Positions 2,155 through 48,268 of a stretch of DNA of 56,008 nt are shown here, one piece after another. The stretch comes from Bacteroidota bacterium (GTDB lineage Bacteria > Bacteroidota > Bacteroidia > Bacteroidales > VadinHA17), in NCBI GenBank assembly GCA_022561875.1, contig JADFQJ010000016.1:1-56008 (forward strand). Direction: 5' to 3'. The first letter of the stretch is position 1; each line of letters begins with the position of its first letter. The notes below the pieces were generated by a model, which was given only the letters and a program-made list of their open reading frames with translations, made no database searches and had not been told where the DNA came from. Made by a program: the position numbers and the translations under genes.

Positions 2155-2991
2155 ATGAAATTTCTGAATTTTCTGATCAGTAAAGTTTTCTTTAAAAACC
2201 TTTCTCTTGCAGTATTAATTGCGGGGGGATTTATTTTGGGAAGTCTCCTTTTCCTTCAAATATATACAAATCATGGACAGGCCAGACAAGTACCGGACTT
2301 CCGGGGGATGAACCTCGAAGAAATTGAGAAAACTGCAAGGAAACACAAGCTTCAATTTATTATTATCGACTCAATTTATTCTCAGCAGGTTGAAAAGGGA
2401 CATGTAGTCTACCATAATCCTGAACCGGGTTTTAAAGTAAAGAAAAACCGCAAAATATTTCTGACAATCAATGCTATAAAACCCGAGATGATAAGTGTGC
2501 CTGATGTTGTGGGGTTGTCTCTAAGGCAAGCCAGGGCATTGCTTCAAACCAGCGGATTTATCATCGGGAAGTTGAGTTTTGTTCCCGACCTGGCAATAAA
2601 TAACGTCCTCAAACAAAAAAATAATGGTGTTGAAATTGAAGAGGGTGATTCACTGAAAAAAAATGCAGTTATTGACCTGGTTCTGGGTAAAGGTCTGAGC
2701 AACCAAAAGACCCTTGTTCCCAGAGTGATATCTCTTGATCTTGAAACTGCCAAACAGAAAATATTAGGATCTTCTATGAATCTGGGCGCTTTTACCTTTG
2801 ATGAAACAATTGAAAATGAAAAGGATTCGATAACATCATTTATCTGGAAACAAAATCCTGAATATACCGAGGATTACCGTATTCCTTTGGGATCAGCAAT
2901 GTATATCTGGCTGACTGTCGACTCGGCCAAACTCCCTCAGCCAAACACAACAACTGTGGAATTGGAGCTGGATAGTGGAAAAATGGAATGA
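2155..2991 (+). CDS. PASTA domain-containing membrane protein
   Basis: A 278-residue protein with a short cytoplasmic N-terminus, one membrane segment (about residues 16-37) and three PASTA repeats (about 45-107, 114-180 and 186-256). Typical PASTA openings are visible, such as QVPDFRGMNLEEI, SVPDVVGLSLRQA and LVPRVISLDLETA. PASTA domains are usually extracytoplasmic and bind peptidoglycan or act as protein-contact modules in penicillin-binding proteins and Ser/Thr kinases. Here no enzymatic domain is attached, as in the stand-alone PASTA proteins of Bacteroidota. I chose ATG 2155 because the upstream in-frame extension to 2035 overlaps repeat sequence and lacks PASTA character. It follows mqnE by a repeat tract and is probably involved in the cell envelope; the partner is unknown. 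Confidence 0.85.
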   Translation: MKFLNFLISKVFFKNLSLAVLIAGGFILGSLLFLQIYTNHGQARQVPDFRGMNLEEIEKTARKHKLQFIIIDSIYSQQVEKGHVVYHNPEPGFKVKKNRKIFLTINAIKPEMISVPDVVGLSLRQARALLQTSGFIIGKLSFVPDLAINNVLKQKNNGVEIEEGDSLKKNAVIDLVLGKGLSNQKTLVPRVISLDLETAKQKILGSSMNLGAFTFDETIENEKDSITSFIWKQNPEYTEDYRIPLGSAMYIWLTVDSAKLPQPNTTTVELELDSGKME

Positions 2992-3060
2992 TTGAATGGT
3001 GGAATGGTGGAAAATTGGGAAGAGGAGAAGAGGCGGCTGGGCGAAAAGGCGATAAAGAGA
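2992..3060 (+). repeat. Degenerate word-repeat tract after the PASTA gene
   Basis: GGAATGATTGAATGGTGG and following GGAATGGTGG/GGAAGAGGAGAAGAGG words start within the last codons and stop of the PASTA gene. They closely resemble the tract at 1971-2046. A spurious frame (2988-3251) crosses it. Confidence 0.65.
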
Positions 3061-3100
3061 AAAAATCAATCTCAAACCTTAAACATCCTGAAATTGAACT

Positions 3101-3233
3101 CGTAACACGTAACCACAGTGAAATATGCTCCTTCCCCAGTGAAATACTTTCGTGCCTCAAATTTAACCCCGGCACGGTCATTCTTCCCTGCGGGGCAGGC
3201 AGGGCAGGCGTCGCATTTCACGTGGCAAGCCCG
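3101..3233 (+). repeat. Bipartite dispersed repeat, copy A (long spacer)
   Basis: A 31-base block (3101-3131, beginning CGTAACACGTAACCACAGTG) and a 24-base block (3210-3233, beginning GTCGCATTTCACGTGG) are both found, identical but reverse-complemented, at 29508-29565. In this copy the blocks are 78 bases apart; in the other they are 3 bases apart. The spacer here contains a G+C-rich stretch around 3187-3209 (GCGGGGCAGGCAGGGCAGG). It lies in the gap before the T9SS gene at 3256. Confidence 0.85.
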
Positions 3234-3255
3234 AAACTCGTAACATTTTGAAATA

Positions 3256-5157
3256 ATGGAATATTCCAAAACAACTACGTATTATCCTGAAAAACCACAT
3301 TTAATACATATAATCAGTATAATTACTTTTTTTATATTGTTTGGCAATGAAACTCCGGCCCAGGAAAAGCTTACAGGGTTATCAGTTAATCCTGTTTTAA
3401 TACAATATAATAAAACACACAGTAAAACTATTCATTTAAAAAGCAAGGCAACACCGGACACTTTAACTCTTCCGTTTTTTGACGATTTTTCAGTCAGCAA
3501 GATATTACCTGACCAGGATAAATGGACTGATAATAAGGTGTTTATCAACACTAAATATCCTGTTGATCCAATCTCTATCGGGGTTGCCACATTCGATGCA
3601 ATTGATAATACCGGCGCATTATACGAAGATGCCAACTCTTATAGTTTCGAAGCCGATCATCTTACATCAAAACCTATTGATCTTGATTATCCTGCTTCAG
3701 CGAATATTTACCTGAGCTTCTTTTACCAGCCAAAAGGAAAAGCTGATTCTCCGGAATACATTGATTCACTTGTGCTTGAGTTTTATTCCCCTTTGGATAC
3801 TATGTGGCACTCAATATGGTGTAAACCCGGATTTGACAGTTCCATCGTTTTCCGTCCTGAGATCATTCCTGTTACAGATGAAAAGTTCTTAGTCAAAGGG
3901 TTCAGGTTCAGGTTTAAGAATTATGCCAGTCTGACAACAAATAATGATGATCCGGGCAGGGTTACTAACTGTGACCACTGGCATATAGACTATATTAAGC
4001 TGGACAGGGACAGGAACCCGGCAGATACGATCCCTGATGATGTTGCTTTCGTACGTCCCCTGCAATCTTTGCTAACAACTTACGAATCAATGCCCTGGGA
4101 TCATTTCCGTAATGCTTTTCTGTTTGAAATGGGCGGGAAAATACCCATCTGGTACAAGAATAATGATGACCTTGTCAGGAACGTGACCCGGGAATTCCGG
4201 ATCACTGATGTTTATGAGAATTCGGTGGTTCATTCTTATACCGGCGGGGCTGCTAATATCGATCCCCGGGAGGTTATTAATTATGAATCGGGATTGTTCT
4301 ACACATTTAATACTACCGGTCCCGATTCAGCACTGTTTGAGATTAAAAGTTACCTGATCACGGATGATTTTGATGAGAAAGGAAATGATACTGTAATTTA
4401 TTTACAGAAATTCAATAATTATTTTGCTTACGATGATGGTTCTGCTGAAGCAGGATGGGGTATTGGCAATGGTGAAGCGGCATACCAGTTTAATGCATAC
4501 ATACCAGATTCGCTCAGGGCTATTCAAATGTATTTTAACCAGTCTTTTAATAGCGGCAACAAAATAAGTTTTACTCTGAAGGTCTGGGAAGATAATGAAG
4601 GCAAACCCGGCAACCTGCTTTACAGTCAACCCGGTGAAGTACCCGTATACAGTGATAGTCTGAACCGGTTTATTACCTATACGCTTGATACGGCAATATA
4701 TGTCTCAGGATTATTCTATATTGGATGGGAACAAAATCTTAATACCTCTTTAAATGTTGGTTTCGATTTTAATCGTGTAAGCAATAATAAATTGTTTTAT
4801 ACTGATGTTGTTGATCAGCAAAAGTTATGGATCCAATCTGCAATAGCCGGCACGTTAATGATGCGTCCGGTTGTTGGGATGTCCATTATAACAAGCACCT
4901 TTCCTGAAGCATCTCCCATATCCATAATGGTCTATCCGAATCCCGCAAAAGATTTTATCAATATTTCCGTTCCCGGCGAAACCGGTTTTTCGGAATTTAC
5001 CATTTCAATCTTCAATATATATGGAAAGCTGGTTTTTACATCCGGTAATTTTATCAATAGGATATCTGTTGAAAGATTCGATCCTGGTATATATTTTGTC
5101 AGGATAACTAATCATGGTATGCATGTTGGATCAGCAAAATTTATTCACATTCGTTAA
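3256..5157 (+). CDS. Secreted protein with T9SS type A sorting domain
   Basis: A 633-residue exported protein of unknown function. A hydrophobic signal segment lies at about residues 16-36, ending near TPAQE. The body contains beta-rich, jelly-roll-like sequence (for example LYLSFFYQPKG-type strands around residue 155 and a GWGIGN-containing region around 400). The last roughly 80 residues form a type A C-terminal sorting domain: VYPNPAKDFINIS, IFNIYGKLVF and FDPGIYFVRI. Such domains direct outer-membrane translocation by the type IX secretion system and surface attachment or release. No catalytic motif is evident. It is followed after 17 bases by the pseudouridine synthase gene, so the two may be cotranscribed. 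The family role (adhesin, enzyme or structural) is not determinable. Confidence 0.85.
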   Translation: MEYSKTTTYYPEKPHLIHIISIITFFILFGNETPAQEKLTGLSVNPVLIQYNKTHSKTIHLKSKATPDTLTLPFFDDFSVSKILPDQDKWTDNKVFINTKYPVDPISIGVATFDAIDNTGALYEDANSYSFEADHLTSKPIDLDYPASANIYLSFFYQPKGKADSPEYIDSLVLEFYSPLDTMWHSIWCKPGFDSSIVFRPEIIPVTDEKFLVKGFRFRFKNYASLTTNNDDPGRVTNCDHWHIDYIKLDRDRNPADTIPDDVAFVRPLQSLLTTYESMPWDHFRNAFLFEMGGKIPIWYKNNDDLVRNVTREFRITDVYENSVVHSYTGGAANIDPREVINYESGLFYTFNTTGPDSALFEIKSYLITDDFDEKGNDTVIYLQKFNNYFAYDDGSAEAGWGIGNGEAAYQFNAYIPDSLRAIQMYFNQSFNSGNKISFTLKVWEDNEGKPGNLLYSQPGEVPVYSDSLNRFITYTLDTAIYVSGLFYIGWEQNLNTSLNVGFDFNRVSNNKLFYTDVVDQQKLWIQSAIAGTLMMRPVVGMSIITSTFPEASPISIMVYPNPAKDFINISVPGETGFSEFTISIFNIYGKLVFTSGNFINRISVERFDPGIYFVRITNHGMHVGSAKFIHIR

Positions 5158-14271: not shown

Positions 14272-14460
14272 GAAGATTGTGAAGAGGTGATGAGGGGAAG
14301 AAGAGACGAAGAGAGGGGGCGAGGGAGAGATGGAGAGAAGAGGCGAAAAGAAGAAGAGGTGAAGAGGAGAAAATAGAGATGAGAAGTGAGAGATAAGTTG
14401 TGAGAAAAGAGCGAAGAGCAAAGTGCAGAGAGCAAAGAAGTATGAAGAAGTCATTAAGTG
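14272..14460 (+). repeat. Purine-rich degenerate repeat tract
   Basis: After the sugar transferase stop codon about 180 bases are almost entirely purine on the plus strand, built from GAAGAGG, GATGAGG and GAGCGAAGAGCAAAG words. The last type recurs at 43363-43395. It then passes into AATGAC-containing sequence up to 14537. Long frames on the minus strand (14203-14454) are compositional artefacts. Confidence 0.75.
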
Positions 14461-15850: not shown

Positions 15851-15934
15851 AAAAAGTTACGGGTTACGAGTTACGAGTATGCCTTTCTTTTTCTTCCATA
15901 CTCACTTTACTCACCTACTCACCTTCATTCTTCC
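15851..15934. repeat. Degenerate word repeats between elbB and DUF4294 gene
   Basis: The gap opens with GTTACGGGTTACGAGTTACG, related to words at 16706-16734 and 29498-29565. Its second half (15898-15934, ACTCACTTTACTCACC onward) is the reverse complement of the GTGAGTAGGTGAGTAA-type words found after mqnE at 2001-2046. Confidence 0.7.
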
Positions 15935-16549: not shown

Positions 16550-16665
16550 AGTTAACCATATCATTTCAAGAAATATGCCAACGACTATTATTGAAGGTTT
16601 TTTTCGTTTACTGCAAAGTAAATAAATAAAAACTTAATTCTGGAACAAAGGTATGTTTTGTAGTG

Positions 16666-16738
16666 TTGCAGTGTCGCAGTGAAGTGATGAGGTGATGAGG
16701 TAATGCGAGTTACGGGTTATGTGTTTCGGGTTATGAAT
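16666..16738 (+). repeat. Degenerate word repeat, shared with 24424-24455
   Basis: Bases 16666-16697 match 24424-24455 with two mismatches in 32 bases (TTGCAGTG, two variable bases, then GCAGTGAAGTGATGAGG). It then continues into GTTACGGGTTATG-type words. It lies between two minus-strand genes. Confidence 0.8.
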
Positions 16739-23660: not shown

Positions 23661-23734
23661 TAGCGAGAGCGGGACTTGAACCCGCGACCTCATGATTATG
23701 AATCATACGCTCTAACCACCTGAGCTACCTCGCC
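23661..23734 (-). tRNA. tRNA with anticodon CAU (Met, probably elongator)
   Basis: Reading the minus strand gives a 74-base cloverleaf. The acceptor arm GGCGAGG pairs with TCTCGCT (two G-T pairs), the D-stem is GCTC/GAGC, the anticodon stem TATGA/TCATG encloses TTCATAA, and the T-arm is GCGGG-TTCAAGT-CCCGC. The anticodon is CAU. The standard 1-72 G-U pair argues against an initiator tRNA. A tRNA-Ile with lysidine at position 34 cannot be excluded. The 3' CCA is not encoded. A promoter lies just upstream and a terminator just downstream, so it is a single-gene unit. Confidence 0.93.
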
Positions 23735-29491: not shown

Positions 29492-29497
29492 AAGATG

Positions 29498-29570
29498 TTA
29501 CGGGTTACGGGCTTGCCACGTGAAATGCGACAGAGGAGCATATTTCACTGTGGTTACGTGTTACGGGCAG
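29498..29570. repeat. Bipartite dispersed repeat, copy B (short spacer, inverted)
   Basis: Just after the fmt stop codon, GTTACGGGTTACGG leads into a 24-base block (29508-29531) and a 31-base block (29535-29565). These are exact reverse complements of 3210-3233 and 3101-3131. Only 3 bases separate the blocks here against 78 in copy A, so copy A carries about 75 extra bases, or this one has lost them. Confidence 0.85.
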
Positions 29571-29584
29571 TCAATGCCTTCTTG

Positions 29585-48149: not shown

Positions 48150-48177
48150 AGCAATGTTTGTTTAAGTTTGATACTTT

Positions 48178-48259
48178 CGGGGGGGTATTCCCTACGCCGG
48201 CATTACCCGGATCAGGTTCTAAGGGTTTGATCTCAGCCCGTAATATTAGGGCACCCCCA
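48178..48259 (-). promoter_or_regulatory. TPP riboswitch (THI element)
   Basis: On the minus strand the leader reads GGGGGTGCCC, then GGGCTGAGATCAAACCC, TTAGAACCTGATCCGGGTAA, TGCCGGCGTAGGGAA and a closing CCCCCCC. These are the conserved TPP-aptamer boxes in order: CUGAGA with an ACCC partner, GAACCUGAUC-x-GGGUAAUGCC and AGGGAA. The outer GGGGG (48254-48258) pairs with the C-run (48179-48185) as P1. It ends 29 bases before the receptor start codon, so thiamine pyrophosphate probably represses translation by hiding the start region. Confidence 0.95.
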
Positions 48260-48268
48260 TAATTATTA

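Follow-up and report, generated by a model that had tools for sequence, protein, structure and literature searches.

A dispersed, nesting hairpin element in heptamer arrays of Bacteroidota that behaves like a REP- or Rickettsia-palindromic-element-style mobile element

Why should intergenic DNA carry the same two short blocks twice, in opposite orientation and with very different spacing? In the window analysed here, the whole of a 56,008-nucleotide stretch (contig C55, 1–56008) of a 2.77-Mb Bacteroidota assembly (104 contigs, 98% complete), blocks of 31 and 24 bases at 3101–3131 and 3210–3233 are identical to the reverse complement of 29535–29565 and 29508–29531, with a spacer of 78 bases in copy 1 and 3 bases in copy 2. 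Comparison with other copies shows that the two blocks supply both arms of a single imperfect palindrome, which ends in a short tail. The unit is 42 bp, CACAGTGAAATATGCTCC–loop–GCATTTCACGTGGCAAGC (43 counting an ambiguous C; this one-C ambiguity applies at each end); in the short form the foot CCAC/GTGG is followed by an unpaired A and the stem GTGAAAT/ATTTCAC, with a loop and the 3' tail CAAGC. The blocks as first delimited extend into the neighbouring 7-bp repeats (CGTAACACGTAAC to the left, CCG to the right); Table 1 gives the element proper and its parts.

Table 1. Parts of the element and its flanking heptamers in the window
Feature	Position	Strand	Basis or remark
Copy 1, long form, 117 bp, A palindrome with nested modules B and C	3114–3230	+	3113–3229 equivalent (one-C ambiguity); locus without the unit in G003 (same genus)
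Nested module B, 42-bp palindrome; uninterrupted form CCCAGTG...GGGGCAGGC	3135–3209	+	Flanked by TTC and GTC in the A loop; interrupted by C here, 75 bp jointly; forms with versus without B
Nested module C, 33-bp hairpin, CCCGG...GCGGGGCAGGC	3168–3200	+	In 3' arm of B; B with versus without C; C modules in other contexts
Heptamers 5' of copy 1, TCGTAAC ACGTAAC	3100–3113	+	Sequence, period-7 statistics
Heptamers 3' of copy 1, CCGAAAC TCGTAAC	3231–3244	+	Sequence, period-7 statistics, G003 comparison
Copy 2, short form, 42 bp, A palindrome alone	29511–29552	-	G003 locus without the unit
Heptamers 5' of copy 2, CCGTAAC ACGTAAC	29553–29566	-	Sequence
Heptamers 3' of copy 2, CCGTAAC CCGTAAC	29497–29510	-	Sequence

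The element is a dispersed family. With up to two mismatches allowed, the left arm has 60 matches (32 + 28) in the window's own genome versus one control match, which places the identity of the two window copies, correctly reported in a preliminary description, far beyond chance. At the same tolerance the right arm has 35 matches as a 19-mer and 37 as an 18-mer (no control matches for either), and a BLAST search with 3081–3260 gave at least 62 matching pieces, a lower bound with 40 of 119 first-look candidates scored. Both ends were read for 47 copies in this genome, and two copies per 56 kb is about its average density. With dozens of copies across the genome, a chance local duplication confined to these two, which the description had set against the idea of an element family, is ruled out. 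Of 60 genomes, 16 (counting the window's own) have right-arm matches, and 13 have at least two: its own, all six other same-genus genomes searched and six others of the family. The single matches in G010, G023 and G049 are at control level, a reversed pattern giving one match in each of three genomes. Occurrence among relatives within the same family is patchy.

A pattern scan of a species-genome collection found 64 short-form loci, all in Bacteroidota, Bacteroidetes or Bacteroidales MAGs, many of them named CSMAG; the pattern fixed most of the stem and the tail, so conservation among these loci is not evidence. A plasmid, phage or viral carrier was considered and dropped: at the settings used, window 3100–3255 had no match in plasmids or phages and the short-form pattern none in viral contigs. 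The copy table held 120 rows, from which removal of three double-counted inner rows left 117 and of one short-flank row 116, a partly dependent sample that includes some orthologous or paralogous loci.

Comparing copies with and without internal segments, which sets the module ends, accounts for the unequal spacers. Copy 1 is A + B + C (42 + 42 + 33 = 117) and copy 2 is A only, and the spacers differ by 75 bases (78 − 3 = 42 + 33) because copy 1 holds B and C; of the two explanations first offered, an insert gained by a modular element or a deletion between the blocks, this exact fit supports the former. Module C follows TTTAAC in the 3' arm of B, and a further module D (34 bp, CCCGATGAAAT...ATTTCATGGGGTAAAC) follows TTTCAC in the 3' arm of A. 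B, C and D are all hairpins, each with CCC at the foot and a CAAGC-, CAGGC- or TAAAC-type tail. More generally, a module has a foot CCMC/GKGG (M = A/C, K = G/T), usually a one-base bulge, and a 5-nt 3' tail, and most modules seen have the GTGAAAT/ATTTCAC stem. Forms with and without each module represent filled and empty sites, and no target is duplicated at them. The element grows by insertion of further hairpins of the same kind into itself, and nested modules explain the main length classes of the 47 own-genome copies: 43 bp (18 copies), 85 bp (11) and 118–120 bp (12), with one copy each of 64, 73, 77, 86, 109 and 152 bp. A and B are six heptamers long (42 bp each), B sitting at a heptamer boundary of A; C and D depart from the 7-bp rule. 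Around 1435–1500 of L093 (minus strand), the loop holds ~59 bases of non-palindromic filler instead of a hairpin module, and at the start of L087 and in L033 near C-module copies there are more hairpin types with the shared foot and tail and another stem (CCCTGTGTAAT...ATTACACAGGGCAAGC and a variant).

The stem pairs covary. In a hand-chosen set of 24 distinct arm pairs (23 of the 62 from the own genome and the right-arm-match loci plus one short-form locus, L108; opposite-strand, mispaired, long-loop and no-bulge rows left out), with loops removed, 93.9% of cells are paired versus 88.9 ± 0.9 in shuffled sets (0/500), and 17 cells carry double changes versus 7.4 ± 2.1 (0/500), chiefly CG to AT or the reverse at stem position 3 and CG to TA or the reverse at position 4. 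A conserved secondary structure, among the features raised at the outset, is borne out to this extent. Neither the count of double-change pairs (3; 218/500 shuffles) nor that of further pair types (6; 479/500) exceeds the shuffles, and arms slid by +2 likewise give three double-change pairs, with a score of 0.123 versus 0.170 unslid. Folded as single-stranded DNA, the short form has z values of −3.18 and −2.59 on the two strands, and the long form folds more weakly (−1.21 and −2.02). Tails in the 116 copies are CAAGC (89), CAGGC (22), CATGC (2), CTGGC, TAAAC and CAAGT (1 each), a tally in which 64 loci derive from a pattern fixing CARGC.

Orthologous loci show sharp-ended gain or loss of the unit. 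At copy 2, G003 has a 42-bp gap, with four heptamers in both genomes and 14 more differing bases just upstream. A further pair from other genomes, L123 and L117, with flanks 92% and 89% identical, differ by a 42-bp unit between heptamers and again have four heptamers each; the inter-anchor difference is 41, a 1-bp indel accounting for the shortfall, and the two loci also differ by a single unit in a 7-bp array upstream. At copy 1, window and G003 are 91.4% identical over 255 columns, and the difference of 125 bp resolves into 117 + 7 + a 1-bp indel, copy 1 having one heptamer more (ACGAAAC in G003 versus ACGTAAC–117 bp–CCGAAAC). The G003 spacer orthologous to window 2992–3255 holds a different family member (L289, 3650–3700; CCCCTGTAGAAATAGCTCC...GCATTTCACAGGGCAGGC) in opposite orientation, in 8-bp ATTATTCC repeats ~0.2 kb upstream of copy 1's site; G003 is therefore empty for the copy 1 insertion only. 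Elsewhere in the genus, no paired arms were detected in the copy 1 loci of G001, G002 and G006, and that of G005 lacks nearly the entire intergenic region; the copy 2 junction has other heptamer arrays without the element in G001 and G006, and in G002 and G004 no paired arms were detected there. We infer that the direction of change is gain rather than loss. Together with the dispersed family, such filled and empty sites support the small non-autonomous mobile element that was among the initial suggestions. In G001, the junction orthologous to window 29492–29584 (L172) consists of ~14 tandem CTCAAAC units between two convergent genes, in contrast to the CGTAAC heptamers and element in the window.

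The target is in heptamer phase. Flanking heptamers match at five or more of seven positions on both sides of 97 of 116 copies (39/47 in the own genome), versus 3.2% of 2226 adjacent 7-mer pairs taken 120–600 bp away. The mean identity of left and right flanking 7-mers is 0.80 versus 0.49 when right flanks are shuffled among the 116 copies (maximum of 300 shuffles, 0.542), and period 8 is the next highest, at 0.389. The heptamer itself varies by copy (CGTAAC, TTTTGCC, CAGTAAC, TTTTAAC and others). Intergenic parts of the window contain many 7- and 8-bp tandem repeats (for example, 2983–3012, 14281–14438, 15855–15924 and 16662–16735), with five runs of at least seven matches at lag 7 and ten at lag 8, versus 0 and 1 in one shuffle.

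Under one rival reading, a transposase that duplicates 7 bp moves the unit, a transposon-type MITE bounded by terminal inverted repeats; the flanking heptamers would then be partly target-site duplications, and repeated insertion and loss would seed arrays. The extra heptamer of copy 1 relative to G003 is what such a transposase would leave, and exact 7/7 flank duplicates border 6 of 16 copies outside arrays (mean 0.759); over the 116 copies, L1–R1 identity is 0.80 versus 0.66 for neighbouring units within a flank. However, where both flanks are arrays (n = 43), L1–R1 identity (0.831) is close to that of neighbours (0.804 and 0.824), and in a stricter non-array subset (n = 7) it falls to just 3.7 of 7. 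As for the target-site duplications that the preliminary description proposed looking for, the extra heptamer at copy 1 may be one, but there is none at nested B, C and D or at copy 2 and L123/L117, where heptamer number is unchanged despite the 42-bp unit. Moreover, the 5-nt tail lies asymmetrically outside the stem, unlike terminal inverted repeats, and a few copies (L085, L088 and L289) sit in 8-bp repeats. We consider this reading unlikely.

Alternatively, the element might be a passenger, not itself mobile, carried by homologous or template-switch recombination between heptamer arrays. Such arrays are abundant (141 matches to CGTAACACGTAAC with up to one mismatch versus 4 in the control), and the left–right heptamer match described above would be expected. 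Likewise, at one orthologous intergenic region in four genomes (L040, L131, L139 and L127), the element is present in all four and the flanking repeats match left to right but differ between genomes (CTCGTAAC versus AAATTAAC), as if both flanks had changed jointly or the insertion had been repeated. Against a passenger role, the same A or A + B forms recur in the heptamer classes CGTAAC, TTTTGCC or TTTTGTC, and CAGTAAC, from which we conclude that the unit has its own ends; modules lie within modules, where no array exists; and boundaries fall sharply at the same base, the final flank base being C in 115 of 116 copies. Recombination is a distinctly improbable account.

Could the palindrome instead be a conserved functional element, such as a terminator, an RNA-stabilising hairpin or a nucleoid site, kept in place by selection? 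High conservation, the hairpin and a mostly intergenic position would suit such a role; by a crude ORF caller (at least 100 aa), 11 of 117 copies lie within ORFs, several of these probably spurious. Yet orientation relative to genes is balanced among the 90 of 117 copies classed (30:30 in tandem gene pairs, 15 convergent to 15 divergent), which argues against a terminator, and the flanks show no consistent T-run 3' of the hairpin. Presence varies between close relatives, copies occur inside coding regions, and a known RNA family was set aside for want of any Rfam match at the element. The structured RNA tail and chromosome-organising site suggested at first do not fit the balanced orientation and the Rfam result, and we regard selection in place as very improbable.

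That the element encodes no protein holds with a qualification, as some copies are in frame within coding sequence. At L126, in a protein that we take to be response regulator-phosphatase-like, an in-frame copy near the C-terminus supplies 21 residues absent from all 13 aligned homologues (~40–56% identity, not orthologues); the locus is 100% identical to G005:C300. Four N-terminal copies in the own genome, read as in frame from these sequences, lie upstream of QAPQGFNYQ or QVPQGFNYQ. The unit's length is divisible by three and it is open in several frames. The location of the in-frame copies, apparently within signal peptides in some cases and close to the C-terminus of an enzyme in another, suggests that the element can alter proteins.

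The L126 insertion is 63 bp (42 + 21), that is, nine heptamers. Combined with the six heptamers of A and of B and with flanks that match where there is no array, this leads to a further reading, in which palindrome and heptamer array would be two products of one machinery: insertion would copy 7 bp and loss would leave the copies behind, generating the arrays that occupy intergenic DNA throughout this lineage. We hold this to be decidedly unlikely; if true, it would link two separately described oddities of bacterial genomes.

Taken together, the evidence makes a non-autonomous, hairpin-forming mobile element the probable identity of the unit. We infer selfish spread rather than host function, through single-stranded HUH-type chemistry with an enzyme acting in trans. 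Under this proposal, the unit would most likely move in trans as single-stranded DNA; the enzyme would recognise the hairpin foot and tail, cut 3' of a C at each end (after ...AAC in the flank and ...RGC in the tail) and insert the unit directly after a C, either in a tract of tandem heptamers or within another copy. Nested insertion would create long forms that could later spread as one unit. IS200-type chemistry leaves no target duplication, so the 6 of 16 exact flank duplicates and the one extra heptamer would not fit it. For recognition by TnpA-REP we draw in part on PMC8266576. The mobiliser could have been lost, could be shared or could be of a different kind.

Of the genes inspected, none was found to be a cognate transposase. 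The own genome (G000) has three Y1 transposases, whose surrounding loci (L100–L102) contain no element arm, and element-rich G024 (11 matches) has no Y1 match at E ≤ 0.001. Across Y1 loci in several genomes, an inspection by eye that covered a minority of all Y1 matches, gene flanks were available for seven of nine, with other palindromes there (no flanks for L181; those of a neighbouring ORF for L102). RAYT-like genes (NF047646, below its cut-off) occur in some relatives; G000 has no family member at E ≤ 1e-5, its NF047646 matches falling only in open frames of 84 and 129 aa. Among 36 same-family genomes, the RAYT-like family is weakly associated with the element, being present in 6 of 13 genomes with at least two element matches versus 3 of 23 others (Fisher p = 0.046, uncorrected, genomes not independent; presence defined by best E < 1e-20, a threshold set post hoc that left out three weaker genomes). 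RAYT as cognate partner was rejected, as the RAYT-like genes inspected (9 of 15 loci, by eye) all have different palindromes alongside. Two cases of proximity are probably coincidental: in G005 a RAYT-like gene and a full copy are ~0.9 kb apart (L222), and in G019 an element-like right arm lies ~0.2 kb beyond such a gene (L232). The genes with their own palindromes are at L222, L225, L235, L232, L233, L239, L244, L250 and L251, and these Bacteroidota apparently contain several REP/RAYT families.

How does the element compare with known systems? No description of this palindrome sequence was found in the literature covered, a scope outside which most subscription journals and all bioRxiv preprints lay. 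By analogy, it behaves like a REP- or Rickettsia-palindromic-element-style mobile element. REPs (GTAG and CGTC super-families) and REPINs are similarly short imperfect palindromes with one unpaired end tag in tens of copies, mostly intergenic, sometimes intragenic and sometimes within other repeats. Di Nocera 2013 (PMC3733652) likewise describes CGTC REPs as lacking a dedicated transposase, and some REPs as inserted within other repeats. The tag here, however, is CAAGC, CAGGC or TAAAC at the 3' side rather than GTAG or CGTC, and the element is therefore not filed as a REP; its modules also nest, its target is 7-bp tandem arrays and, in contrast to the GTAG type, none of the RAYTs inspected is accompanied by this palindrome.

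Rickettsia palindromic elements (RPEs) are palindromic, multi-copy and found in frame inside protein genes, and by description the present element resembles them in all three respects. They are described in PMC10969869 and PMC3733652, the latter assigning RPE-4/-6 to the CGTC family, whose tag is absent from this element. The unit here is 42 bp rather than ~150 bp, lies mainly in heptamer arrays and belongs to another phylum. Elements derived from IS200/IS605 (TnpA Y1) share hairpin ends and nested copies without target duplication, but here each module has one hairpin, the target varies, none of the Y1 genes inspected has matching ends and one case shows a possible 7-bp duplication. The element differs from DDE-type MITEs in its asymmetric tail and in a duplication that nested modules lack and that is not the same at all three loci.

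Intergenic 7-bp arrays of the kind that hosts this element have been reported separately: TAACTGA heptamer repeats in Beggiatoaceae, Cyanobacteria and five Bacteroidetes (PMC4679880) and heptameric SSRs (PMC4692102), although a palindrome inserted in arrays is not described in the available parts of either source. The parts of the element are unusually easy to discern (well-defined ends, loci seen without the unit, nested hairpins and a heptamer-array target), which makes two questions testable: what moves REP-like elements that have no obvious transposase, and how intergenic arrays of 7-bp units originate. Elsewhere, the window has ordinary features such as a tRNA gene (23661–23734, minus strand) and a TPP riboswitch (48172–48268, minus strand).
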